In this document: positions 1,990-37,035 of the stretch, piece by piece
Layout: the number at the start of each line of letters is the position of its first letter
Numbering within the stretch: position 1 is the first letter of the stretch
Virus record (IMG/VR): IMGVR_UViG_3300033153_005162
Coordinates: 1 to 37,035 of that record
Reading direction: 5' to 3' (one strand)
Length of the DNA stretch: 37,035 nt
DNA from: a virus
Translations under genes and position numbers: made by a program
Notes under the pieces: model-generated
Seen by the model: only the letters and a program-made list of their open reading frames with translations
The model's database searches: none
What the model was told of the DNA's origin: nothing

Positions 1990-4380
1990 ATGGCAACAAA
2001 TATAACATCAGATCAATTTAAGGCAAGAACAGATCTAGCAAAAAAACAAATTGCTAGATGAAATAAACCAACTCAGTTTAAAACTTGAACTACAGTTACT
2101 AAAACTTGATTTGCTGAGAAGACTAGAAAAGAAACAGAAGCAAGATCAGCAAGAACAGAAAAGAAAAGACAAAAATGTATTTCTGAAGGTTGAACATTCA
2201 ATCCAGTAGCAGAAACATGTTCAATGTGAATTACAGAAGACTTATGAGTAAGATCAACTTGAAATTTAGAAAAAGATATAGCTTTATGATTATCTGCAAG
2301 ATGAACTAGAGTATCTCCTGAACAAGAAGCTTTAAATCTAATTGCTAGATGAGATATTGCACAAGTAGAAGAATGAGATATTTCTTGATTAAGTGAAACA
2401 GCATTAGCAACACTTGCTTGAGCAAAGAAACAAGAAGAAGAAAAAACTGAACTAGAAAAGAAACTTGAAAAAGCTAAACTAGATGCTGAAAAGAAAAGAA
2501 AACTTAAAGAAAAAGCTTTAGAAGCAGCTGCACCTTGAATAGAAGTTTGAGCAGAAGCTCCTACTGTTGCATTAGCAAGATGAATTGAATGAATCCAAAC
2601 AGAAAGAGCAGCAATAATTGAAGAAGAGTTTGCTTTTAACCAACAAGCAATCTCAGACGCTAAAACTGAACTTGATGAAGCATTAAGAACTTGAAGAGTA
2701 GACCTAGTTAAACAAGCTAGAGCTTCTATGCTAGACCTTCGTAAACAAGAGCTTAATCTTAAATCACAAGCTACTTCTGATGTATTAGAAACAATGTGAG
2801 ACACTCTTTTAGGTAAAACTGAAGATGAGTTAGCTCAAATTGCTATGGATCAAAATGTAGACTTCTGATTACTTAAACTACAACAAGAGAAGTTACAGCT
2901 TAAAGATGCAACAGCAGAAGCTAAAACACAAGTAGCAACTCAAAAACAAGCTCAATGATTTGTAAAAGGTCTAAATAATGATCAACTTTGAGCATTAACT
3001 TCTGCACAAGCTACTCAATTAAACACTGAGGCTTGATTACCAGAATGAACTCTATCTAATTGGGTTTTAAGAGCACAAGAGATTAATAAACTTGATAAAT
3101 CTGAACAAGAATTAGCAAATGCTAAATTACAAGCTGATATTGATAAAAAAAATGCAGAAACATTAACAGAGCTAGGTAAAGATGAAGATGAAATTAAAGT
3201 AACTCCAACTTGAGTACAAGAAGAAGTTACAATGACAGACTGAAGAACTATTAACATAGATTCAGTTTGAAAAGAAAGTTTAATGAATATTAACGAAGAG
3301 CTTTGAGATGAGTGATTAAGACTTGGAGCTGTAGCAACTAGCTGAGCAAGAAGTATTGAACAACAACAAAGACTTTATGGACAATGAAGAACTAGAGAAG
3401 AGCTTGAAGCAATGTGAATTAATTGAGATTTTGCACAACCAAATAAACCAGTTGTAACAGATGCTGATTGAGTTAAATCTAAATCTTTACACCAAACTTG
3501 ATTAGCTATAGATTTATTTCCAGACAAAGAATATATCGAAAAAGTAAGACCTAATTTAGAAGCTAATTGATGGTTTCAAAATCCTGACTTAGTTGATAAA
3601 TGAGATGTATGACACTTTGAATATAAATGAATAGGTGCTGATCCAGAAATTACTCAATTTGATATTGCTAATTTTAACAACTCAACATTTAAACCACAAA
3701 AGGATTTAAAGACTAAAGCTGATAAAGCAAGATATAGTAAATTCTTATCTAAAAGAAAAGATGTTTTATGAAATCCAGATCCATTACTTATTGATATTCT
3801 TGAAATATCTGAGTGATGAAAAGATTTGACAGATTCTGCTATTACTAAGTTAGATAAGTTTTGATGAGTATTAAGTTGAGCTTGAGATTTATTGCAAACC
3901 ATTGAAGAGGTAAATAAAGATTCATTATTTTGATGAACTTGACCAATTTCTTGAGCTATCGCAAGTATTAATCCTTATAATACATCAGCTCAAGTACTTA
4001 AAAGACAACTTATTGCACTTATTCCTTGATTAGCTAGATGAGTTTATTGAGAAGTATGAGTTTTAACTGATAACGATGTTAGATTATACGCTTCAACTCT
4101 TCCAAACTTAACACAAACAGAAGATGTTAATAAAGCTGTACTTTGAATTACTCTTAGAACAATACAAAGGTCTTATCAAAACTCTCTTAAAACACAGGCT
4201 GCAGCTTGAAGAGATGTATCTTGATTTGCTTGAGCTTATGAAGCAATTGAGCAACAAGTAAAATCTATTGAAGAAGAGCTATGAATGACAGAAAATGCAA
4301 TAAGACTAGAGGCAGAAGAATTAGCTAATAAATTTGATCCAGAATTATCTTCTGTAATGAATAAATATAACCTTAAATAA
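1990..4380 (+). CDS. Coiled-coil virion protein with M15-type peptidoglycan peptidase domain
   Basis: 796 residues. About residues 1-430 are charged and helical, with long Glu/Lys-rich coiled coils. Residues about 470-548 form a D-Ala-D-Ala carboxypeptidase / L-Ala-D-Glu endopeptidase (M15) domain: GRTREEL, then SLHQTGLAIDLFPD with His501 and Asp508, then DVGHFEY with His542 and Glu544, matching the zinc and catalytic residues of T5-endolysin/CwlK-like enzymes. The remaining 250 residues are helical. Its size and its place between tail genes argue for a virion component that opens the cell wall at infection rather than a lysis enzyme. That role is inferred; the domain is visible directly. Confidence 0.8.
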
Positions 4381-4381
4381 T

Positions 4382-6073
4382 ATGGCATTCCCAAAGACAT
4401 CACAGGAGTTAGATACTTGGTTAGGTTCAATGCAAGAGCAATGAGCTACACAAGAAGAAATGCAAACAGTGTTTACTGAATTTAAAAAAAGAAAAGGTGA
4501 ATCAGAACCAGCTTTGACTTGACCAGAGCCTTGATTTATTGAAAGAGTCTGAGAAAGACTTTGAGAAAGAAAAGAGCAAATACTAACAACTGCAGAACAA
4601 CAAGCAGCAGACCAGATTTGATTTTGAAGATGAACATTAAGACAAACTTGAGCTTTATTCTGATGAATTTCAGATATATTTTGAGAATGATTAGTTTCAG
4701 CCTTTAAATTAGCCTGAGAACCTTGAAAAGAAACATTTAAGAAATTAGCACAAACTGAACTTTGACAAAAATGATTAGAAGCTATTTCAAAATGAGTTGA
4801 CGCTTACCAAGATTTTAAGGAATTAAACCCAGAACTTGCCAAAGATATTGAAGCAACAGTAAACATTGCAGAGTTTTTCCCAATTTGAAAATGAGTTTGA
4901 GCAGCTGCAAAAGTTACAAAAGAATGAGCAGAAGTTATCTGAAAAAAAGTTGTTAAATGAGCTTGAGAAGTTTGAGAAGTAGTTTCAAAACAAGCAGAAG
5001 ATGTATTAAAAAGAGAAAAAATTGATTTTGTTAAAGATTTATTAAGTCCAGAATGAACTAAAAAAGAAAGAATAGCTGAAATAAAGGCTTGAAAAGTTCA
5101 AGAATGAATTTTTTGAAGACAAACTACACCGTGAAAAATAGAAACTAAAGCAATTGAAGAGGTTTCAAATATTCCATGAATTAGTAAGTCAAACACTAAC
5201 CTTGATAATAATAATGTTATCAGAGATGAAATAGTAAAAGAAGCAACTTGATTAGAGAAATCTTTAAAAGCAAATGATGTTATTTTTACAAGAAAAGAAC
5301 TTAACTCATTTTTGACTAAATGAATAGAAAACATTGAGAATAATAAGTTATTAAGATGAGATGCAGAAAAAATTGCATTAGATATGTTAGATGAATTTAA
5401 GAATATTATGAAAAATAAACCTTCAAAATGAAGTGCTTTATTAGAATGAAGAAAAGAGTTTGACCAAATTGTAAAAAGATTCAGATGAGACAAAGCATTA
5501 GATCCTAATATTGAGAATGCTTTAAGTATTGCAACTAGAGAGGTAAGACAATGAGCAAATGATTTTTTAGCAAATAAATCACAGATTGTTGATGTTAAGA
5601 ATAGCTTAAATAAGCAATCTAATTTATTTAATGCTTTAGAAGTAACTGCTATTAAAGCAGATAAAGAAGCAAAAAATGCTATTTGAAGATTTCTTTGAAA
5701 TGTAAAAAATAAACTATGATTGAGTTCAGAGTTAGCATGAGTGTTAGCAACAATATGAGCAACTTGATGATTAGGTTTTCTAACAACAGTGGCTCCAGCA
5801 GTAGTTTGAGCATGAGCAGCTTGATTATGAGCTTTTAAATTATGACAATTAGCATTTGGTGCAAAAACTAGAAAAGCAATTTGAGATGCACTAAAAAAAG
5901 TAAATAATGCTTTAAATAAAGCTCCAAATGATTCTGAACTTTTAAAAATAAAATCTTGATTAGAATGATTAAGTAAATGAGATATAACAGATATAGTTAC
6001 TTGAGCTTGAGTTCTTTGAGTTTGAAAATGAATTGAAAATATTCAAGAAACAGAAGAAAAATTTAATCCTTAA
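4382..6073 (+). CDS. Probable internal/ejected virion protein
   Basis: 563 residues, family not recognised. The first 200 residues are helical and rich in Lys, Glu and Gly; the middle is charged. A hydrophobic Gly/Ala-rich stretch around residues 450-490 (LAGVLATIGATGGLGFLTT onward) could span a membrane. The gene starts one base after the preceding stop and lies between the peptidase-bearing virion protein and the large fibre, where short-tailed phages encode internal or ejected proteins. Membrane-active ejection is an inference from position and the hydrophobic segment. Confidence 0.55.
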
Positions 6074-6201: not shown

Positions 6202-9200
6202 ATGTCACTACGTACAATAGCAAACAGTAGGCTAATAGATTGAGAAAAACTAGACAATGCTCCAGCTGATATTAGCGCAGAACTAGACTTAAAAGAAGAT
6301 AAAGTAGCTTGAAAGTGATTATCAGAAAATGATTATACAGATGCAGAGAAATCTAAGCTTGCGGCTTTAGATTCTGCTTTGTATGAAAAATTATCTAATA
6401 AATGAGTAGCTAGTTGATATGCTTCTCTTGACTGAGACTGAACTGTTCCAGCCTCACAACTACCATCTTATGTAGATGATGTTTTAGAGTTTGACACTTT
6501 ATGAGATTTCCCTGTTACTTGAGAAACTTGAAAAATATATGTAGCAAAAGATACAAATAAAACTTATAGATGGTCTTGATCAACTTATGTAGAAATAGTT
6601 TGAAGTATATGAGTTTGGAGATGAGCATATGATAATGGAACTTCTTATATATTAGACGATAGAGTTTCATACTTATGAAGTTCTTATATTTGTATATCAC
6701 CAACAACTGGTAATTTACCAACAAACGTAACTTACTGGGATGTATTAGCTGAGAAATGAGATACTTGAGATACAGGTGCAACTTGAGATACTGGTGAGAA
6801 ATGAGATACTTGAGATACTTGACCAGCTTGAACTGATTGAATAATGGCAAGTGTAGTTTGATGAACAAACATCACTGTAGATGATACTGATCCAGCTAAT
6901 CCAATTGTAAATACTTCTGCTACAGTAAACAGCACTGATGCTCATTTATTAGACAGAGCTAATCACACTTGAACACAAATAGCTTCAACGATTAGTGATT
7001 TCTCTAACGCTGTGTGAGCTGAAACTAATTTACATTGAATACTATCTATAGAACACATTGTTGAGTTAAACACAGATATAAAAAAGATAGACATTCAACC
7101 TACTGATTACTTTATAGCTTGAACTAAATACAGTTATGCTTGATGAACTGCAATTACTCCTACAATTTGAGCTTGAGATAGTTCAACTTGGGTTTGACTA
7201 GATAGTGCTTGATTAGTTTATTCTACTGATACTTTTACACCTACTGAAAAACTTACAATTCTTCCTTTAGCAAGATTACAAGCTGTGCAATGACAATCTT
7301 GACCTTGAAGTGATTTACAAACTCCAGTTCATTTAGAATATTCTATTTGAATGGATTGATATGTAGACTCTCAATGGTTACAAGATACTGTATGAGTTTT
7401 ATACGCAAATGGTTGAAAATTCTCAGAGAATGCTACTTCATTTCAAGTAGATGAAGAGGCTTGAGAATTTTATAATGCACAAAGGAAAAAAATCAATATT
7501 GCTTGAACTACTGCAATTGAAGCTTCTGAGGTTTATCACATTAGCTGAGCTCCTACTGTACAAAATAGAGCGACATTAGTTGTTCCTAAATATTATGATA
7601 ACTGAACAGATATAGTTGCACTAAGTACTACTTGATGGGCTTCACATACATTACTTAAAAGTCCAAAAGAGGATGACTTATTCTTCTTGATCTATTCAAG
7701 TGCAGAATACACTTCAAAAGCAATTGCTGAGTCACAAGCTTGAGATTTCTGAATATTCCAAAGTCAATCTATTTCTTGACTAATCCCAGTTGCAAAATTT
7801 ATAGTAAGTTGAAGTTCTACAAACATTGATCTTGTTAAAAATGTATTCCCTTGTTTAATGGGTTGTAAAGAGCCAGTTATTGGTATTGCAACAGTTCAAG
7901 ATGTTTACGACAACTCTACTAGTCCAGAAATAACAACAGATTCTACAAGATGAGCATTATCAGTACAAAGAGGTTCTGCTTCTGATACAGATAATGTTTA
8001 TGAGTGAAAAAACTGAAGTTGAACAACTACTTTTGCTGTTGATTGAAATTGATTAATTACTTGAGATTGAGGTAATCTAACAAACTTACCAGCTGCTTGA
8101 ACTACTGCTGGACAAGGTGTTATTTACTATCCTTGAAATACAATTGTTACTTGAGATAACTACAATCTTTGAACTACTCCAGAATGATGAGCAGAGGTTG
8201 AAATACAACAAACAGCAAATAGCACAACATCTCCTGTATTTATGGAGAGATATGTTTCTGATCCTTTATGATGAACTGAAATAAGCTGAGGTGCTTGGAT
8301 TGTAAATACTTATGCTTCTGTAGACAGTGATGTATGAGTAAGTGAAATTAAGCATAGAATGAATAAAGCAGTTGAAATGACTTGAACAGTTACTTCAACT
8401 TGAACCTGATTAACTAGAACATTTACAGCTACTGAAGCTTGAACTTTTGTTTCTTGAGATGCAGACCCTTCTATTCTAAATGCAACACTAATTCAAACTC
8501 CAACTGAAACATTCTTTATTGATACATTTATTTCTGGAACAGTAGTAACAGCAACTTCAGACAATGCTTGATATACAAACGAAACCTGAGTTGCTTTCTC
8601 TAACTTCTATAAATTATTTGAATGAACAACTTGAGAAATTAGCTGAACTGATCACACAAACTATCCTTCTGCTTCTGTACAACAAACATTTACAATAAAC
8701 CCAGCAGACAGACTTTTAATTGCTTATTTTGCAGTTGCTTCTACATCTTGAGACAAGGTTTTATCTTTTTATAAAAACTGACAAGACCATTATTCACATA
8801 TTGTTTCTCCATTAATTTATAGACATAATGACCTAGAAGGTTTAAATGAATGAACTGTTTATAATCATTTAACAGATGCACAATTAGCAGTAGTAAATGC
8901 TACTTCTGGTGCAAATACTTGAGATCAAACAGATATGTCTTGAATCTCTGACACAACAGCTAATTTTAACACATCATTAAGTGATGACAATTTCGCTACA
9001 ATAAATTGAACTGAAACATTAAGTAATAAAACTCTTACAAGTCCAATAGTTAACTCTCCTACTTGAATAGTTACTAACGATGTAACAGAAAGCACTGATA
9101 AAAACTATGTAACAGATGCTGAAAAAACTAATGTATGAAATCTAGTTTCAAACTGAACTTGAGATAATTACTTATCTGATGATTGAAGTTATAAAGCAGT

Positions 9201-10455
9201 TTCTTGATGAGCTTCTGAATCTACTCAAACAAGTGTAACAGCTTGAGAAGATGTGAGTGCTGGGGATGCTGTAGCGTACTTGTCTATAGCTTTGTCATCA
9301 AATACTCCAGCTACAGCATCAAGTTGATTTTGACATAGTTCTGCAAATAATGAGAAGCTTGCACAAAAATTTACAATTTCATCTTCTATAGATATAAATA
9401 AAATTGATGTTTGGTTATGGCAAAATGCAAATGCGACAGATAATGCCGTAATAAGAATTGAAACCGATAATGCATGAGAGCCTAGTTGAGTCCTTGCAGA
9501 TATTAATTCAACAGTAAGTATAGCTTGAACAAGCCTATGAACATCTTTAGTTAAAAAAACATTGAATTATAACACTTTCACACTTTCTGCTTGAACTTAT
9601 CATTTAGTTTGTTCTAGAGATTGAGCATTAGATGCATCTAATTACTATCAAATATGAATACTGCCTACTGTTTGATGAATTACTAGTAGTCCGTTTCAAG
9701 AGTTAGATAGTTCTTCTTGGGTTACTAATTCTACTTATTGAATCTCGTTAAGCTTATTAGCTCCTGCCTGATACTTTAAATCAGATGCATCAGATGCAAA
9801 CAAAGTAAACTTCACAGGTATAGCCTCTGAAACAGTTACTTCTTGAAACCCTCTACTGCTAGATACTGCTTGAGTAAATAGCTCTCAAAGTGGGTTAACT
9901 GCTTGAAGTGAGTATTATTTAGCTGATACAGCTTGAGAAATCTCAACTACTCCTTGAACCAACTCTATTAAAGTAGGTAAAGCATTAAGTGCTACTGAGA
10001 TTGAGATATATACTTGAGGGGAAATAAAAATTTCTAAAAGTATAGTACAAGCAAATGTTACTACTTGATTTACACTAACTGCAGCATCTGTATTACCAAT
10101 ACAATATATTAATAAGCCAATTGATATAAATTGAGATTTTAGCACATCTACATATATATTTACAGTTCCAAGAAATTGAATATATACTATAAGCTATTGA
10201 GCTTGATTTTATTATAATTTAGTTGCAAATAGTGATTATAGAATAGAGATAAATAAAAACTGATCCGTGATAAACTATACTAAAATTGAAAGAAACTGAA
10301 GTATTACAGCTACTGCTAATTCTTTTTATTTATCAGCAAATTATATTGGTTCATTTTTAGCTTGAGATGAAATTCAAGTAGTATATAATGCGAATTCTAC
10401 TGCTAATTGAACTTCGTATATAGATGATTGACATTTAAGTATTATTGAATTATAA
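6202..10455 (+). CDS. Large tail fibre with collagen-like repeat and C-terminal C1q-like domain
   Basis: 1417 residues, the largest gene. Order: a fibre N-terminus with VASGYASLDGDGTVPASQLP; a small carbohydrate-binding-like module at about 137-185 (WRGAYDNGTSYILDDRVSY ... YWDVLAEKG); ten collagen-like Gly-X-Y triplets at 186-215, with Gly encoded by TGA in eight and GGT in two; fibre repeats such as LLDRANHTGTQ and SGANTGDQTDMSGI; and a C-terminal domain from about 1280 that resembles C1q/TNF-like phage fibre tips (STSTYIFTVPRNGIYTISY). Expected to trimerise and bind the host surface. It is the last gene of the tail module. Confidence 0.9.
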
Positions 10456-11419: not shown

Positions 11420-12130
11420 ATGGAAAAAATAACTAACTGAACACAGTACAACGAAAATACATCAGACTGGATACTTAAAGACTGAGATAAAGTTTTAGTA
11501 CCAGAACATAATTATAATATATTAAAAAAATCTTTTTGGCAGTTTCCAGTATCAAAGAACTCATGTTCAGTTCATTGAGCTTTAACTTGTATTGCAAACA
11601 CTTTCAATATAAACTATTCTTTATCTGAAAGAGAGGAGATTTGGGAAGAAGCTAAATCAAAAGGAGCTTCAGATGATCGGTGATGGTATTTCGCAGATGC
11701 ACTAAAACTTTGCCAAGAATGGACTGCAGAAAACAAAGAATATAAATTCAGATACTATAAAATCCAAAAAGAAGAGTTCGAGAAGTATGCTAAATTGTGA
11801 TTTACAATTTACTGAGGTATTAAAGTTAAAGATTGATCTACTCGGGATAAGCTAAAAGATTGAGTTATTTGAGATGATGTTGAGAGCTATTGAGAGTCTA
11901 AATTTTGACATGCAGTTTGTTTTTCAATGATTTGAGATAAGTTCTGATTTATAGACAATTATCCTAATAAAACTAAATACAATACTCCAACATTTACTAA
12001 CTTAGATAAATTACTAGAAAACTGATATTTCTTTAATACATGATATATTTTAATGACAAGTGAATTAAAAAATATTGAAAAAGCACTTGCTAATAGAAAA
12101 GAAGCACAAGACAAAAAGAAAGGAGATTAA
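11420..12130 (+). CDS. Papain-like cysteine peptidase, candidate endolysin
   Basis: 236 residues with the order of a C1/C39-like cysteine peptidase: SKNSCSVHGALTCIAN with probable nucleophile Cys49, a GWYFADALKLC helix around 88-98, then FGHAVCFSMIGDKFGFIDNY with probable catalytic His164 and Asp179/Asn180. No signal peptide. It lies between a membrane coiled-coil protein and a holin-like gene, so a role as cell-wall endopeptidase in lysis is inferred; cleavage of a host or virion protein is the alternative. Two codons are CGG (residues 87 and 142), rare in this genome. Confidence 0.65.
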
Positions 12131-18470: not shown

Positions 18471-19022
18471 ATGGAAACAAATATATATACAAAACTATTT
18501 AATGTAAAGAAGTCTTGAATCTCTCTTACCAGAGATACTGAAGCCTATAACTATAAATATGCAACCCTTGCTCAAATACAAGAAAAACTTTCAAAAGTAT
18601 TAGAAGAACAAAAACTTATTGTGATACATCAGATTTTAGAAAATTCTGTTAGAACTAAAATTATTGATATAGAAACAGAAAAGTCTGTATTTAGTGAAAT
18701 TGAAATGAGTTCTTGAATTAAAGCACAAGACAAATGAAGTGAGATTACTTATTTCAGAAGATATAACTTATTATCATTACTAGACCTTGAGGTTGAAGAT
18801 GATGATTGAAAGAAAGCACAAGACTCTAAATGAACTAATCAAACTAAAACAGAAGAAAATAATTTGCCTTGGATATGAGACAAAGAAATGAATTCAATAC
18901 AATCTAATATCTGAAAATATAAAGATAAATATTGATCAGTAGATGAGTTTATAGCTTGATGCAGAACTAAATATAAAATATCTAAAGCAAATGCTGAATT
19001 ATTAAAATGATTTTATGGCTAA
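18471..19022 (+). CDS. erf: ERF-family single-strand annealing recombinase
   Basis: 183 residues. Classic ERF signatures: YNYKYATLAQIQEKLSKVLE near residues 26-45 and GSEITYFRRYNLLSLLDLEV near 94-113, followed by the usual acidic EDDDG and a variable C-terminus. ERF proteins anneal complementary single strands, circularising or concatemerising phage DNA. The downstream NinB-like and SSB-like genes complete a recombination cassette. The last eight bases overlap the next gene. Confidence 0.88.
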
Positions 19023-21480: not shown

Positions 21481-22140
21481 ATGGAAAATACTAAAAACAA
21501 TACAGGTTTAGAAAACACTTGAAACAGAAACACTTGAAACAGAAACACTTGAAACTGGAACACTTGAGACTGGAACACTTGAGACTGGAACACTTGAGAC
21601 TGAAACACTTGAAACAGAAACACTTGAGACAGAAACACTTGAAACAGAAACACTTGAGACTGGAACACTTGAGACTGGAACACTTGAGACAGAAACACTT
21701 GAGACTGAAACACTTGAGACAGAAACACTTGATTGTTTAATACAGATGAACCGAATGCAAGAATGTTTTGAAAAGAAACAAATATTAAAATGTCAGATTT
21801 TAGAAATTCAAATACTTATCCATCATTTTATGAATTTAATTTAAATTATTGGATACCAGAAAGTGAAATGACAGATGAAGAAAAAGAAGAGAATCAAACT
21901 TATAAAACTACTTGATGATATTTAAAATCCGTAGATTATAAAACAGCTTGGAAAGTATTTTGGAGAAGAGCTGACGAAGAAAATAAGCAAAAATTTCTAA
22001 ACTTACCAAACTTTTGTCCAAAAATATTTGAAGAAATAACTTGAATTAATGTTGAAGAAAAACCTAAAACAGAATTAACATTAAAAGAAGTAGCTGAAAA
22101 ATTATGAGTACCAGTTGAAGATTTAAGAATTAAAGATTAA
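21481..22140 (+). CDS. Pentapeptide-repeat (NTG) phage protein
   Basis: 219 residues. From residue 12, fourteen consecutive five-residue units NTG(N/D)x (x = R, W or G) are followed by NTGLF and NTDEP, then ARMFGKETN and a conserved-looking C-terminal domain (EFNLNYWIPESEMTDEE, TTGGYLKSVDYKTAWKVFW, LPNFCPKIFEEITGI). This repeat-plus-tail layout is a known phage hypothetical family. The repeats should form a right-handed beta helix. Every NTG glycine is TGA. The extreme C-terminus (TLKEVAEKLGVPVEDLRIKD) resembles a small helix-turn-helix. Function of the family is unknown to me. Confidence 0.85.
21514..21738 (+). repeat. 15-base tandem coding repeat
   Basis: About fifteen units of the form AACACTTGA plus six variable bases (AACAGA, GACTGG, GACAGA, GACTGA). 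Each encodes one pentapeptide. The near-identity of units implies recent expansion by slippage or recombination. Confidence 0.9.
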
Positions 22141-22871: not shown

Positions 22872-23341
22872 AGCCAAGTAAAGACCTACAAATTGCAGTT
22901 GAATTAGCAAAGAAACACGAATGACTTAGCTTAACTGCTTATTGTGATACTCTAAAATATGTTTGAACTAAATATATAAGAGATTGCAGAGGAAGAAAAA
23001 CAGATAGATGGAGTATTTGATACTGAACACAATCAGTAAAAGGAGAAACTATTACTAAGATTGAAGCAGAGGAAAAGATGATGCAATATTTTCAGAATAT
23101 TCAAAAAGAAGTTGCTTATAAGTGTTACAATGATCAAGAGAAATGAGCTATGTTAGATTTTATGTATAACTCAGGAAGATTTACAAAACATAATACAACT
23201 TGAATTCCATTTGTAACTTATGTTAAGAGATGCGACAAAAAAACTGTAAATAGTTTTCTATATCCTTGAAACTATACTTCAAAATGATTGAAGAAAAGAA
23301 GAAATAGTGAATACATTGCTTTTAATAGCAATAAACTATAA
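22829..23341 (+). CDS. GH24 (T4-type) lysozyme
   Basis: 170 residues. KKHEGLSLTAYCD supplies the catalytic Glu31 and Asp40, and WSIGYGT supplies Thr67, the E-D-T triad of phage lysozymes that hydrolyse the peptidoglycan glycan chain. NDQEKGAMLDFMYNSGR at about 110-126 is the conserved second half. Both Gly of GYGT are TGA. No signal peptide. The only in-frame ATG (22829) lies inside the previous gene. It is placed in the early region, away from the holin-like gene at 12233. Confidence 0.88.
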
Positions 23342-26812: not shown

Positions 26813-27199
26813 ATGGAAATATGTATGATAAAATTTAAATATGTTATTCCAAAGGAATTTAAAATGTCTACAAATAAGATATATGCCTGAATTTTTTGGA
26901 CTAAAAGGAAAAAGATTTCAGACTTTTATCACTCAATAGTTTACTCTGATGCACAAAAGTTCGATACTTTAACTGAAAAAGTAAATATTAAGATGAACTT
27001 CTACTGGAAATCAAGAGTATTAGACTCAAGTAATTGTACCTTTATATGAAAATGTCTTGAAGATTGATTAGTAAAATGATGATTACTAGAAGATGATACA
27101 AATAAATATGTTTGAAAGTTTTCTTGTGAAAGTATACATTTAACACCAGCACAAAGAAAAACATTAGATGGAGATTATGTAGTTATAGAAATAAATTAA
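26813..27199 (+). CDS. RusA-like Holliday junction resolvase candidate
   Basis: 128 residues. An N-terminal VIPKEFKMSTNKIYAGIFW and basic TKRKKISDFYH resemble the DNA-binding start of RusA; LDSSNCTFIGKCLEDGLVKG followed by LLEDD has the D-x-x-N...D...DD spacing of its metal site. A second start at 26825 (MIKFKYVIP) is possible. RusA homodimers cut four-way junctions, fitting the recombination-based lifestyle implied by ERF and SSB. Tentative. Confidence 0.5.
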
Positions 27200-27242
27200 A
27201 TAAACCTTTATAAAAAATAATATATAAATACTTAGGCAAAAA

Positions 27243-27319
27243 GAAGACTTAGCTCAGTGGTAAGTAGCACCTGACTCATAATCAGTAGGTCGAAAGTTCG
27301 AATCTTTCAGTCTTCACCA
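27243..27319 (+). tRNA. tRNA with CAU anticodon (Met, or Ile2)
   Basis: Acceptor GAAGACT/AGTCTTC, T arm GAAAG-TTCGAAT-CTTTC, anticodon loop CTCATAA, and CCA encoded at 27317-27319. G1-C72 pairing excludes a typical initiator tRNA. It is elongator Met, or Ile if C34 is modified to lysidine. The anticodon stem has only four clear pairs, which is slightly irregular. Confidence 0.85.
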
Positions 27320-27327
27320 AAAAATAT

Positions 27328-27402
27328 TGATAGATAGCAAAATGGTATTGCAACAGACTGTTAATCTGTAAAGTTTGGGTTCGAATCCCAATCTATCAGC
27401 CA
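27328..27402 (+). tRNA. tRNA-Asn (GUU)
   Basis: Acceptor TGATAGA/TCTATCA, anticodon stem CAGA/TCTG around loop CTGTTAA (GTT), T arm TTGGG-TTCGAAT-CCCAA, discriminator G and encoded CCA. It lies eight bases after the first tRNA, so the two are probably co-transcribed. Asn codons are abundant in this AT-rich genome. Confidence 0.92.
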
Positions 27403-27442
27403 AAAATAAATGTTTAAGTGAATAAAATAAATAAATAAGATT

Positions 27443-27514
27443 ATGAACCAAGAACTAACACAAGAACAAGCAGATGAGATAACTAAAACTGTTTATAAAA
27501 TGTTAAGGAAATAA
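27443..27514 (+). CDS. 23-residue peptide (tentative)
   Basis: MNQELTQEQADEITKTVYKM then LRK: an amphipathic helix without TGA codons. It follows the tRNAs and ends one base before the next start. Could be real or chance. Confidence 0.35.
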   Translation: MNQELTQEQADEITKTVYKMLRK

Positions 27515-28344: not shown

Positions 28345-28740
28345 ATGAGTGAAAATAAAGTAGGAAGACCAACATCAATGACTCCTGATATTATAGCTAA
28401 ATTAGAAGACTGATTTAGAAAGTCTTATACAGATGAAGAAGCTTGTCTTCATGCAAATATTTGAACTACTACTCTTTATACTTACTGTGAAGCTAATCCT
28501 AAATTTAAGGAGAGAAAAGAGATACTTAAGAAACACCCTAATCTACAGGCTAAAGACAACTGGTTTAAGAAAATAGCTGATTGAGATTACCATGCTTCTA
28601 AAGAATGGTTAGAAAGAAAGAGTAAGTCTGAATTTAGTCTTAAAACAGAAGTACAACAAGAGAATACTAATGTAGATGTAACAGAAGAACTTACTGAAGA
28701 GCAAAAGAAAGCTATTGCTGAAAGATTATCTAAAAAATAA
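28345..28740 (+). CDS. terS: Terminase small subunit
   Basis: 131 residues. VGRPTSMTPDIIAKLEDGF, then YTDEEACLHANIGTTTLYTY is the N-terminal helix-turn-helix typical of small terminases; KIADGDYHASKEWLERKSKS is the familiar oligomerisation-region pattern, and the acidic C-terminus would contact the large subunit. It recognises phage DNA for packaging. The large subunit follows after one small gene. Confidence 0.82.
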
Positions 28741-28802: not shown

Positions 28803-29021
28803 ATGATAATACTAAAAAGTTTAGAAGATTTCTCCACTCTAGAAAGATGAGATGTAATAGTAGACTGAAATTGAGATGAGTTAATAGTTAAAGAAACTTC
28901 TTGAGAAGAATTACTGACTACCTATTGGAATACTCCTTTAAGCAACAAATTCTCAGCTAATTATTGACAAATAGAAATAAATAAAAGAATTAATGGTAAT
29001 TGATGGAAATTAAAGACTTAA
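28803..29021 (+). CDS. 72-residue beta-rich protein, unknown
   Basis: LERGDVIVDGNGDELIVKET followed by two more strands and GWKLK near the end, reminiscent of the module in the 241-residue protein at 23773 (LEVGDVIIDNHLFEF ... NNGWKLKEE). The two may share a small barrel domain. The stop overlaps the terminase start (TAATG), so they are coupled. Confidence 0.6.
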
Positions 29022-30451
29022 TGCAAATAACTAAACAACAAGAGGCTCAATTTTTTAAAGAACAAGCTCAACAAGATTTGTTGAGTTTTTGTATATTCAC
29101 AGATAAGAACTTCCAAGTATTACCACATCATGAAGTAATTGCTGATCATCTTATTAAGCTAATGAACTGAGAGATTCAAAACTTAATTATATCAATGCCA
29201 CCAAGAGCATGAAAGAGTAGACTGATGGAAGAGTTTATTGCTTACTTAATCTGACACTATTCTAGTACAGATGTTCTTTATACATGACATACAATATCAA
29301 TCCTAGAGGATTTCTCTAGGCATATTAGAAGTAGATTAAATTCTAATGAGTATAAAGCTATCTTCAAATCAAGAATAACTTCAGACAATGCAGCTGTTAA
29401 GAGTTGGAAAGTTGAGAAAGGTTGAGTATTCTCTATATTCTGAGTAGGTTGATGAATTACTTGAAAGGGTTGAGATTTATTAGTGGTAGATGACCCTTAT
29501 AAATCAAGACAAGATGCAGAATCAGAAACAGTTAGAAGAACAGTAAGCGATTGGTATCGGTCTACACTTCTTTCAAGAAAGCAAACAGATAAAGCAAAAC
29601 AAGTAATCATAATGCAGAGATGGAGAGAAGATGATTTAGCTTGAGAGATATTAGAGAAAGAATGAGATAAATGGGTAGAGCTTAAGATACCAGCATTAAA
29701 TGAAAAGGATGAGAGTTTCTGGGAAGAAAGATTTAGTTCAGATTACTTCAAGGCTTTGAGAGCTAAGAGCCCTATATTCTTTTCTTCACAATACCAACAA
29801 GACCCAGTTAATGAATGAGGTTGAACATTTATCAAAGAATACTTTGAATATTATAATAGTTCAGAGCAAGTCTGAGCAATGAAAAGACTAAACATTATTA
29901 GTTTCCTAGATCCTGCTATAAGCAAGAAACAAGAGGCTGATTTTACTTGATTAGTTACAATATGAATAGATCCTAATTCTAACTTAATCTACGTTTTAGA
30001 AGTTAAACAGCTTAAAGAAGAACCAGATGCAATTATAGATGAGGTATTTGCTACCACTGATAAATATAAACATGCTTGAGCTTCTTATAGGTTCTGAATA
30101 GAGGTAGTAGCTTATCAAAAGATGCTAGCTTTAGAGATTAAGAAACAAATGAGACTTAGAGATAAGTTCTTTGTAATGGAAGAAGTAAATCCACAATGAG
30201 AGAAGGAAGCTAGGATTAAATCTATCTTACAGCCTAGGTATTCTAACAGAAGTATTTTACACAGTAAGTCTACAGAGAATATTTGAGCTTTAGAAACAGA
30301 ATTACTTAAGTTTCCTAATTGAAAAAATGACGATATTTTAGATTCTTTGGCTGGATGTGTAAGATTAACAGAGGTAAATAACCTTTGAGATGACGACGAA
30401 TATTATTTTGATGATAACTCACAGGTAGCAGATTTAGACTGAATACTTTAA
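29021..30451 (+). CDS. terL: Terminase large subunit
   Basis: 476 residues, normal for the family. ATPase: ISMPPRAGKSRLMEEF with Walker A Gly64-Lys65-Ser66 (this Gly is TGA), and LLVVDDPYKS as Walker B around Asp157. The linker WYRSTLLSRK and MQRWREDDLAGEIL are conserved. Nuclease: FLDPAISKKQEADFTG with Asp297, and NDDILDSLAG near the end. It pumps DNA into the procapsid and cuts it. The Arg in WYRST is a CGG codon. Confidence 0.93.
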
Positions 30452-32299: not shown

Positions 32300-32554
32300 A
32301 TGCAAATATCTAAATTACCAAAGTTCCTAAGAGAGATGACACCTAAAATTAAGATTGATAAAGATTTTAGACTATATCGGTGAAAAGAAACTTCATACTT
32401 ACATTTTGTATCAGAAGAAAACTGAGTACAAAAACTTCTAAAACTTACTTGAATAAAAGTAGACTGAAGAAAGATTAAATCAGACTTATCATCTGCTATA
32501 CTTAGATGCTATGATTCATTAACTAAACATTTAGAATGAGAACAAAAGATATAA
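32300..32554 (+). CDS. Small head-module protein, unknown
   Basis: 84 residues, basic, beginning ISKLPKFLREMTPKIKIDKD. It lies between portal and scaffold and overlaps the next gene by 19 bases. Possibly a minor capsid or assembly factor. Confidence 0.55.
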
Positions 32555-33700: not shown

Positions 33701-34891
33701 ATGGCAAATACAATTATTACAAAAGACATGCTAATGAAAGAGGTGATTAGAAAGCTTGACAAAAAAGCTGTAATCTACCCTTTAGCAAATAGAGCGTTCG
33801 AATGAGAACTTAGAAGACAATGACAAACAGTTACTGTACAAGAATACCCATCATTTGATATGGATCTTTGAGTAACTTTATGAGACGATATTACTGCAGA
33901 AGACTGGACTATTACAGATCATGATTTAACTATTGATCAATCTGCTAATAAAAATCTTAAAGTAAAAGAAATTGAATTAATCAGATCTAACCTTTCTCTT
34001 GAAAATGGTTTAGCATCTAGAGTTGCTGAAGCAATTAGAAGAATGTACGATCAATTTACTGCTGTAACTGCTGTTACTTGAGTAAACGCTGCTAACAAAC
34101 TTAAAGAAAATGCACCAGCTACTTTAGTTAAAACAGATGTAATTGATGAAATTAACTCTATTGCTCAAAAACTTGAAGAAGCAAATGTTGATATTGATGC
34201 TTGAAATGTATTCTTATTCATTAACCCAGCTGTAAAAGCACTTATTAATAACTCTGATCTTGTATCTGGTTTTGATAAATGATTAGCTTTAAGAATGAAA
34301 TGATACGCTTGATCTATTGCTTGAATGCATACTGTTTCTACAAACAACTTACCATTCAAACAATCAATTACTTTAGATTGATTACCAACTGATGCTGATA
34401 CAATCACTATTGCTTGAGTAGTATTTACTTTCCAAACTGCATGATCTGCTGCTGCTGCTTGAGATATCTCTATCTGAGCTGATGCTGCTGCAACACAAGC
34501 TAACTTGATTGCTGCTGTAAACTGAACTTGAACTCCTTCAGCTACAACTTACATTGAAGTATCTGCTGCTGATAGATTAACTCTTAAATGAGCATATGTA
34601 AATCTTGCTGCTTTCTCTTCTGATGTTTGATCACTTACTGCTTGAAAATACATTGTAGTTTCAGAATCTGCTGATAATTTAGCATTATGAACTGCTTGAA
34701 GAGTAATGTTTGCAATGGAATCTAACGCTGTTAATGTTCCTGCACAAATGACTTGAATGAAAATTACTGAGGCTACTCAATGATTTTACTCAAACTTATT
34801 ATTCGAACACGCTTTCTGATGAGCTGTACTTTGAAGTAACGACTTAAGAGTTGCTACTTATGAAATTACAAACTGAACTACTGTTTCTTAG
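33701..34891 (+). CDS. Major capsid protein
   Basis: 396 residues, HK97-type size. The N-terminus contains the conserved-looking VTVQEYPSFDMDL and an acidic DDITAEDW segment. Residues about 230-326 form a Gly/Ala-rich insertion (TITIAGVVFTFQTAGSAAAA onward to KYIVVSESAD), a beta-type surface domain found in several phage capsid proteins. Ala/Gly/Thr-rich composition, regular GCT and CTT codons and position between scaffold and adaptor fit a highly expressed capsid. Ends in TAG and is followed by a hairpin. Confidence 0.88.
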
Positions 34892-35778: not shown

Positions 35779-37035
35779 TGTATATATTAACACAAATAGA
35801 ATCGGCTACTCCTCAAACAGTTTCAACACAAGTTAATACTTGAAGTCCTTGAGGTATAAACTTATTAGATGCTCCAGAACTACAATCTGGTAACAATGTG
35901 ATTAATGTAGAGAATTATAACTTAAACGCTAACTGAAACTTTGAATCTAGAAAGTGAACTGTTGAGTTCCTTTCTAGTTCTGTTTGAAAACCAGTTAGAA
36001 TGTTTGAAAAAATGAGTTCTAATATTTGGGTGTTCTCAGCTTGAAACGAAGTATTCTATTACAATGCTACAACTACAGTAATTACAAGTATTTGAACTTA
36101 CTGAGAAGAAACGGACACTGACTTTGTAGGTTGGATTTCTTGAGATTACCTTTTATTTACTAATTGAAGTTGAAAGATTCAATACCTTACTTTTGACTAT
36201 TGAAGTGATTTAGTTTCTTGAGCTTCTTTTTTACCATATATTTGAGCAAGTCAAGAATGGTACAGTGATGAAGCTTCTTCTAATTGACCGCACACTCTAT
36301 CAGCAAGCTGAGATCCAACTTATCCTTGGACTTTATCACCATCACCATCAGTAAACTATCCTGCGATTAATACTGCAATGGCTAAAAAAGTATGAGGCTT
36401 AGACAACAACTTTTGAACTATTGCCACTAGAAATCCTTGAGATGTTTCAGAGTACAACTTAGAAGAATGAAGTGGTAAAAACTTCTCTATTATTACTTGA
36501 GACCAAGTTTTAATGTTAGATGACCACGCAGAAGTAGAATCAAATGCTTTATCTGTTTGGACTTCTGAGTTAAGCAGCTGAGGATTTAGTTTTAAATCAG
36601 ATTTCACTTTAGTTAGGAATAAAGTTTACGAAATAAGATGTACAGTACAAAACTGAGACGATATTTTATTTGATAACCTTATTTTAACTTGATTTGCTGA
36701 GTCTATAAAAATTAATAATTCAATTTCAACTGAGCAAGTTTTTTATGTTTCTTCTATTACAGATTGAACTACTGAAATTTGAATAAGTTGATTTAATAGA
36801 GATAACTGATTAAGTTGAAAAATACAATTAGGTCTTTCAAATATTACAATTAAAGAAAGACAAGAAGCATTATCAGCTTGAGAACTATCTAGCTCTCCAT
36901 TTTGAGCTAAAAGACTTCTAGTATTCTCTGACTGAGATTGAGACAGACTTTACTGTGGGAATATCTTATGAGATCCTACAGCTATTAAATATTCTGAACT
37001 TAACCAAGTAAAAGATTTATGAGAAGTTCCTTTTC
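35778..37035 (+). CDS. Tail/virion stabilisation-like protein, N-terminal part (continues at 1-1142)
   Basis: 419 complete codons precede the window end. The start GSPGGINLLDAPELQSGNNV followed by INVENYNLNANGNFESRKGT matches the familiar opening of phage virion proteins of the stabilisation/tail-tube-terminator kind (NLLDSP...NV-x-LD...KR-x-G), which form beta-propeller-like assemblies below the adaptor. In a podovirus-like particle it would close the head-tail channel. The family name is a motif-level call, and the full protein is 761 residues. Confidence 0.72.
36922..37035. repeat. Direct terminal repeat, right copy
   Basis: Identical to 1-114, in the same reading frame of the same gene. 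Removing one copy yields a 36,921-bp circle. Confidence 0.95.

Follow-up and report, generated by a model that had tools for sequence, protein, structure and literature searches.

A complete tailed-phage genome in an altered genetic code, with UGA as glycine and CGG most likely as tryptophan

Introduction

The tail fibre gene of virus record IMGVR_UViG_3300033153_005162 (positions 6202–10455, forward strand, stop codon TAA) contains 122 in-frame TGA triplets, together with 21 GGN codons, and encodes 1417 amino acids when UGA is read as glycine. What do these triplets mean, and in whose genetic code is the genome written? The window analysed here is the whole of this record, 37,035 bases. An initial annotation had noted a collagen-like stretch in the fibre and proposed that UGA is glycine, as in NCBI translation table 25 (code 25), rather than tryptophan or stop, that the host is a member of the Absconditabacteria or Gracilibacteria, and that the collagen-like stretch is a ruler inside the fibre.

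Code-25 phages of Absconditabacteria and Gracilibacteria were described in 2023 (Liu et al., mBio; PMC10746230), with coding density and the spacers of their hosts as the evidence for the code; the arginine codons CGA and CGG are not discussed there. RSA-ATP1, a complete tailed code-25 phage of Absconditicoccaceae with a genome of 39 kb, has also been reported (mBio 2026; PMC13059738), and CGG is absent from the text of that paper. For the bacteria themselves, a Codetta screen predicted that CGA and CGG encode tryptophan in Absconditabacteria, Gracilibacteria being mixed (PMC8629427), and because of this prediction the CGG codons of the phage were examined as well as its UGA codons.

Genome organization

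A direct terminal repeat of 114 bp, with copies at positions 1–114 and 36922–37035, indicates that the genome is complete. The 40 genes retained are all on the forward strand, with 36 TAA stops, three TAG stops and no TGA stop. PHROG family models recognise terminase, major head protein and tail fibre genes, and by these genes the phage is classed as tailed, of the Caudoviricetes type. The terminase large subunit lies at 29000–30451 (forward strand; phrog_38, 327 bits; 24 in-frame TGA), the small subunit at 28345–28740 (forward; phrog_4102, 6.6e-20) and the major head protein at 33701–34891 (forward; phrog_283, 1.1e-14; 28 in-frame TGA). Other recognisable products, all from the same strand, are a phage lysozyme (22829–23341; PF00959, 5.6e-10), a pentapeptide-repeat protein with 16 N-T-G-x-x units (21481–22140; PF01469, 3.5e-23), an Erf-like single-strand annealing protein (18471–19022; PF04404, 3.6e-15, and phrog_2324; 10 in-frame TGA) and a large virion-associated protein with a VanY/endolysin-like peptidase domain (1990–4380; 59 in-frame TGA).

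ARAGORN finds two tRNA genes, tRNA-Met(CAT) and tRNA-Asn(GTT), at 27243–27402 on the forward strand, and no UCA tRNA anywhere in the phage genome; a suppressor tRNA carried by the phage was accordingly rejected. An open reading frame at 27164–27451 on the minus strand is antisense to both tRNA genes and is spurious, not a gene.

The meaning of UGA

In-frame UGA occurs 627 times in the 40 genes, spread over 39 of them, and is the second commonest codon. The fraction of the genome in open reading frames of at least 100 amino acids is 0.17 with TGA as a stop and 0.79 with TGA read. A standard code, in which the frames are degraded or UGA serves as a site of programmed termination or read-through, has nothing in its favour but the standard meaning of UGA; it is vanishingly improbable given so many in-frame UGAs, the lack of any gene ending in UGA, and conserved domains that run across UGAs which relatives either retain or swap to GGN.

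Reassignment to tryptophan (code 4), as in Mycoplasma and many recoded phages, is the commoner recoding of UGA, and it leaves the frames just as open. The terminase was translated with UGA as each of the 20 residues or as X and scored against phrog_38. Glycine is the best of the 20 meanings (327.0 bits), ahead of alanine (297.7), serine (296.7) and threonine (283.1), with X at 269.3 and tryptophan the worst at 233.1. With an HMM of standard-coded terminases only, the scores are 373.4 for glycine, 348.2 for serine and 301.5 for tryptophan, again the lowest, and in the columns occupied by UGA in the phage the standard-coded terminases have glycine in 106 of 257 cells, followed by alanine in 38, with tryptophan in three. 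PDB searches with the lysozyme and terminase, with X at UGA, gave no matches.

Comparison with three related phage contigs (L003, L010 and L035) leads to the same assignment. Among 570 aligned comparisons there are 49 exchanges of UGA for GGN and none for TGG, although TGG is a single transition away from UGA. Glycine positions of repeats and motifs are also largely occupied by UGA: 15 of 16 in the pentapeptide array, where the remaining one is GGT; the glycine of the terminase Walker A motif (PPRA-TGA-KS, TGA at 29210); and both glycines of the lysozyme G-Y-G-T motif (TGA at 23018 and 23024), the last two as the initial annotation had read them. In a cellular collagen-like gene of a UGA-recoding genome from the Gracilibacteria class (L037, in genome G018), 43 of the 45 glycine positions are UGA and two are GGA, and UGA is at none of the X or Y positions. 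A phage contig in another UGA-recoding genome of the class, L166, has a Gly-X-Y run in its own fibre with eight UGA and five GGN glycine codons.

Tryptophan as the meaning of UGA is thus exceedingly improbable: it scores lowest for the terminase, exchanges between UGA and TGG do not occur, UGA occupies the glycine positions of collagen-like and pentapeptide repeats, and tryptophan at 627 codons would amount to 6% of residues. On codon counts, terminase scores and the UGA/TGG comparison we reject UGA as tryptophan or stop. By these alignments and repeats UGA is glycine, as first proposed. It makes up 84% of the glycine codons of the phage and is a normal glycine codon, neither a switch nor a read-through site.

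A collagen-like linker in the tail fibre

The collagen-like run lies at 6757–6846 on the forward strand, in the frame of the tail fibre gene. Its first five triplets are TGA-GAT-ACT, TGA-GAT-ACA, GGT-GCA-ACT, TGA-GAT-ACT and GGT-GAG-AAA, and its last five TGA-GAT-ACT, TGA-GAT-ACT, TGA-CCA-GCT, TGA-ACT-GAT and TGA-ATA-ATG. The earlier count of ten triplets—with TGA at eight glycine positions, GGT at two, and no TGA at X or Y—holds, with the last triplet (G-I-M) being marginal, which leaves nine clean triplets and a closing glycine. TGA makes up 8.6% of tail fibre codons, and from this frequency the chance of TGA at eight or more of ten given positions is p = 1e-7; the absence of TGA from X and Y is weak when taken alone (p = 0.17). 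No other Gly-X-Y run of at least four triplets occurs in the phage genome.

Since reading TGA as glycine itself makes the repeat, the argument is partly circular. Support that escapes the circularity comes from the two GGT codons, which are in register with the repeat, and from a CBM5/12-like module (6625–6708, forward strand; Pfam PF02839, sub-threshold) that adjoins the run on its 5′ side: in tblastn with UGA set to X, this module matches proteins of standard-coded phages with E-values down to 4e-12. A Gly-X-Y run follows the module directly in two of three standard-coded phage proteins (L161 and L162, not L160); standard-coded phages with this order of module and run include Mesorhizobium phage Lo5R7ANS and Aeromonas phage GomatiRiver_11. 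PHROG tail-fibre family 5073 spans residues 138–214 of the fibre (8.5e-22). The Pfam collagen model (PF01391) covers residues 186–213 with 19.4 bits, below its gathering cut-off of 27.2; the match is real, and as the run is short, the low score lowers formal membership rather than resemblance.

The run is an ordinary collagen-like linker, short and preceded by a carbohydrate-binding-like module, an arrangement common in ordinary phage fibres. Its approximately 30 residues would form a triple helix joining the carbohydrate-binding-like module to the rest of the fibre, and its glycine sites simply reveal the meaning of the UGA codon. Collagen stretches in phage fibres have been described as trimeric stalks (PMC3368898), and EPclA of E. 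coli prophages likewise has a Gly-X-Y stretch within a trimeric phage fibre (PMC3368898); in comparison with EPclA-type fibres the run here is short, with ten triplets, and its glycine codons are UGA. If rigid, a triple helix of this size would be a rod of fixed length, roughly 9 nm, as expected if the run were a molecular ruler that sets the length of the fibre. We regard this as very unlikely: the run is short and local, runs beside the same module are longer or shorter in other phages (L161, L162 and L166), and the published description of such stretches is that of stalks. Nothing in the analysis shows a measurement of length, and the ruler function originally suggested is unsupported.

The meaning of CGG

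The phage has seven CGG codons, and CGA is absent from its predicted genes. Relatives are informative for two of the seven sites, residue 187 of the terminase and residue 27 of the gene at 32300–32554. The terminase site (SDWY-CGG-STLLSR; CGG at 29558–29560, forward strand, read here as tryptophan) is TGG in seven near relatives (L035, L050, L052, L054, L055, L056 and L057), and the phage, together with L003, which also has CGG there, is nested inside a clade with TGG at this position. The second CGG, at 32378–32380 on the forward strand and likewise read as tryptophan, is TGG in a homologue that is 84% identical (L010/L004). In the reverse direction, a column with tryptophan or phenylalanine in the other sequences has CGA in L035. 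As for the remaining sites, the genes at 11420, 14947 and 23773 have no relatives or relatives from the same population only, and the relatives of the gene at 1144 reach residues 47–109 only, which is of no use for its CGG site. Close relatives are present in the source metagenomes IMG 3300033148 and 3300033153.

As a control, the arginine codons AGA and AGG are aligned with TGG in none of 361 comparisons, and changed CGA or CGG codons in three of four (Fisher p = 5e-7, the comparisons being independent only in part). For the terminase alone, TGG is found in none of 259 cells of arginine columns and in seven cells of the CGG column. The phrog_38 profile does not separate the readings at residue 187, with 327.0 bits for arginine and 325.4 for tryptophan, a difference of 1.6 bits.

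Code 25 leaves all other codons standard, CGG being arginine. That the phage uses this code unmodified, in a gracilibacterial host which reads CGG as arginine, is consistent with the lack of preference for tryptophan in the PHROG profile, with five of the seven CGG sites being uninformative, and with the use of CGA and CGG at arginine columns by those code-25 phages of this terminase family that are richer in GC. We nevertheless consider it unlikely: CGG corresponds to TGG at both informative sites (two only), true arginine codons never do so, the related phage L035 places CGA at a tryptophan column, and the genome with L035 reads CGG as tryptophan by its tRNAs and valS. The pattern of the Absconditabacteria code, with CGG at tryptophan positions, is seen at two independent phage sites and at the CGA site of L035. 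Judged by these alignments, CGG is most likely tryptophan in the phage—a second reassignment beyond NCBI table 25—and by extension this would apply to all seven CGG codons. The original assignment to code 25 therefore stands for UGA as glycine and for UAA and UAG as the only stops, and is incomplete in that CGG most likely differs.

Within the terminase family the two readings of CGA and CGG both occur, at 40–65% identity to the phage. Five UGA-recoded relatives (L055, L057, L058, L060 and L061) are richer in GC (0.32–0.38) and place CGA and CGG at conserved arginine columns; by this measure they clearly retain the standard meaning of CGR. The family is thus split, as the hosts reportedly are (PMC8629427). 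Two AT-rich relatives, L054 and L056 (the latter sister to L035), each have a single comparable CGA or CGG site, which leans to arginine.

Two terminase genes among the relatives are of unusual structure. That of L035 (contig C187 of genome G039, approximately 3692–5998, minus strand) has an in-frame intein-like insert (CILKGE...VHN-C) just before the IDDP motif, overlapped in another frame by an HNH-type endonuclease-like open reading frame. That of L010/L004 (7034–8440) is mosaic, with a C-terminal half almost identical to that of the phage and an N-terminal half from another clade, which suggests recombination within the gene.

The host

Contigs were searched for an EF-Tu-type motif (HVDHGKTT pattern) with UGA as glycine. 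Eight genome contigs were recovered, of which seven are clearly UGA-recoded and most are labelled Gracilibacteria or Patescibacteria. When 353 genomes of the class were searched with the phage DNA and terminase, one close relative was found, contig L035 in genome G039, and closely related phage contigs occur in G039 only. The same genome contains L166, which has a collagen/CBM fibre as well as homologues of the genes at 1990 (the virion-associated protein) and 4382. Scanning the genome collection for the terminase gave no relatives. The DNA matches are to the terminase, to pentapeptide and collagen-like repeats, and to short AT-rich or tRNA stretches; the array of N-T-G-x-x pentapeptides is 72% identical over 198 bases to DNA of a Gracilibacteria-class genome (G349:C199:22072–22269). 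CRISPR spacers, suggested previously as a route to the host, gave no spacer-like match to the phage in the 353 class genomes at E ≤ 1e-6, a search that could miss spacers shorter than about 30 bases.

By the tRNA identity rules of the Codetta paper (PMC8629427), the candidate host genome G039 has a tRNA-UCA with glycine identity (G1:C72, C2:G71, G3:C70 and U73)—the tRNA-Gly(UCA) anticipated for the host—and UCG and CCG tRNAs with tryptophan identity (A/G1:U72, G73 and no A20); its arginine tRNAs are UCU, GCG and CCU. The valS and ileS genes of seven genomes (G039, G040, G035, G036, G018, G005 and G007) were aligned to those of E. coli with CGA and CGG masked. The comparable CGA and CGG codons are nearly always at tryptophan columns and almost never at arginine columns; 18 of 19 in the ileS of G007 are at tryptophan columns, as is the single such codon in the valS and ileS of G039. 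The genome with the closest phage relative thus reads UGA as glycine and CGG as tryptophan.

In G018, tryptophan is encoded by CGA 19 times and by TGG five times in valS (L201), and 18 and 11 times, respectively, in ileS (L206). The CGA reassignment is thus further along than in the most advanced genome of the Codetta study, in which CGA is about as frequent as TGG (PMC8629427).

Contigs C58 (L106) and C2 (L115) of G039 are apparently foreign, with CCA-encoding tRNAs, a duplicated tRNA set and a higher GC content, and because G039 is a fragmented bin with such contigs and no spacer matched, the link to the host is indirect. A host in the Absconditabacteria/Gracilibacteria branch, as given by the initial annotation, is most likely, and CGG as tryptophan would narrow it to lineages with CGR as tryptophan, probably an Absconditabacteria-type branch in which CGA and CGG also encode tryptophan.

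Discussion

Taken together, it is very likely that this is a complete tailed-phage genome that shares the altered code of the host, with UGA as glycine and CGG most likely as tryptophan, and with the collagen-like run as a linker. Having no UCA tRNA, the phage would have to use that of its host: a host tRNA-Gly(UCA) would read its UGA codons and a host tRNA of the tryptophan type its CGG codons, the phage itself bringing only tRNA-Met and tRNA-Asn.

Phages with UGA as glycine are already known. Those of Liu et al. (PMC10746230) were matched to hosts with UGA as glycine, and like the phage described here they have dense in-frame UGA and genes that are intact in code 25 only; here, glycine is assigned column by column and CGG as tryptophan is added. 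RSA-ATP1 (PMC13059738) is similar in being complete and tailed, of comparable size, and with UGA as glycine, and differs in having its own tRNA-Gly(UCA). The phage fits the cellular code of Absconditabacteria (UGA as glycine, CGA and CGG as tryptophan, with matching tRNAs; PMC8629427). That code was described for bacteria and is seen here in a phage, in which CGG is rare and CGA absent. The probable reading of CGG as tryptophan, and a phage family divided over that reading, are what is added here, and the literature searched describes no phage that follows its host in reassigning a sense codon.

Automatic annotation of such phages with table 25 would mistranslate some of their tryptophan residues. 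The use of CGA and CGG is in turn a second and finer host marker, which distinguishes hosts with CGR as tryptophan from those with CGR as arginine among the UGA-recoding bacteria. We consider it likely that the phage has CGG as tryptophan on top of UGA as glycine and that its terminase family is split into members with CGA and CGG as tryptophan and members with both as arginine, apparently following their hosts. Codon use could then record the code of the host, and phages may have crossed the boundary between the two; with both readings present within one terminase family at these identities, such crossing of a sense-codon boundary is testable.
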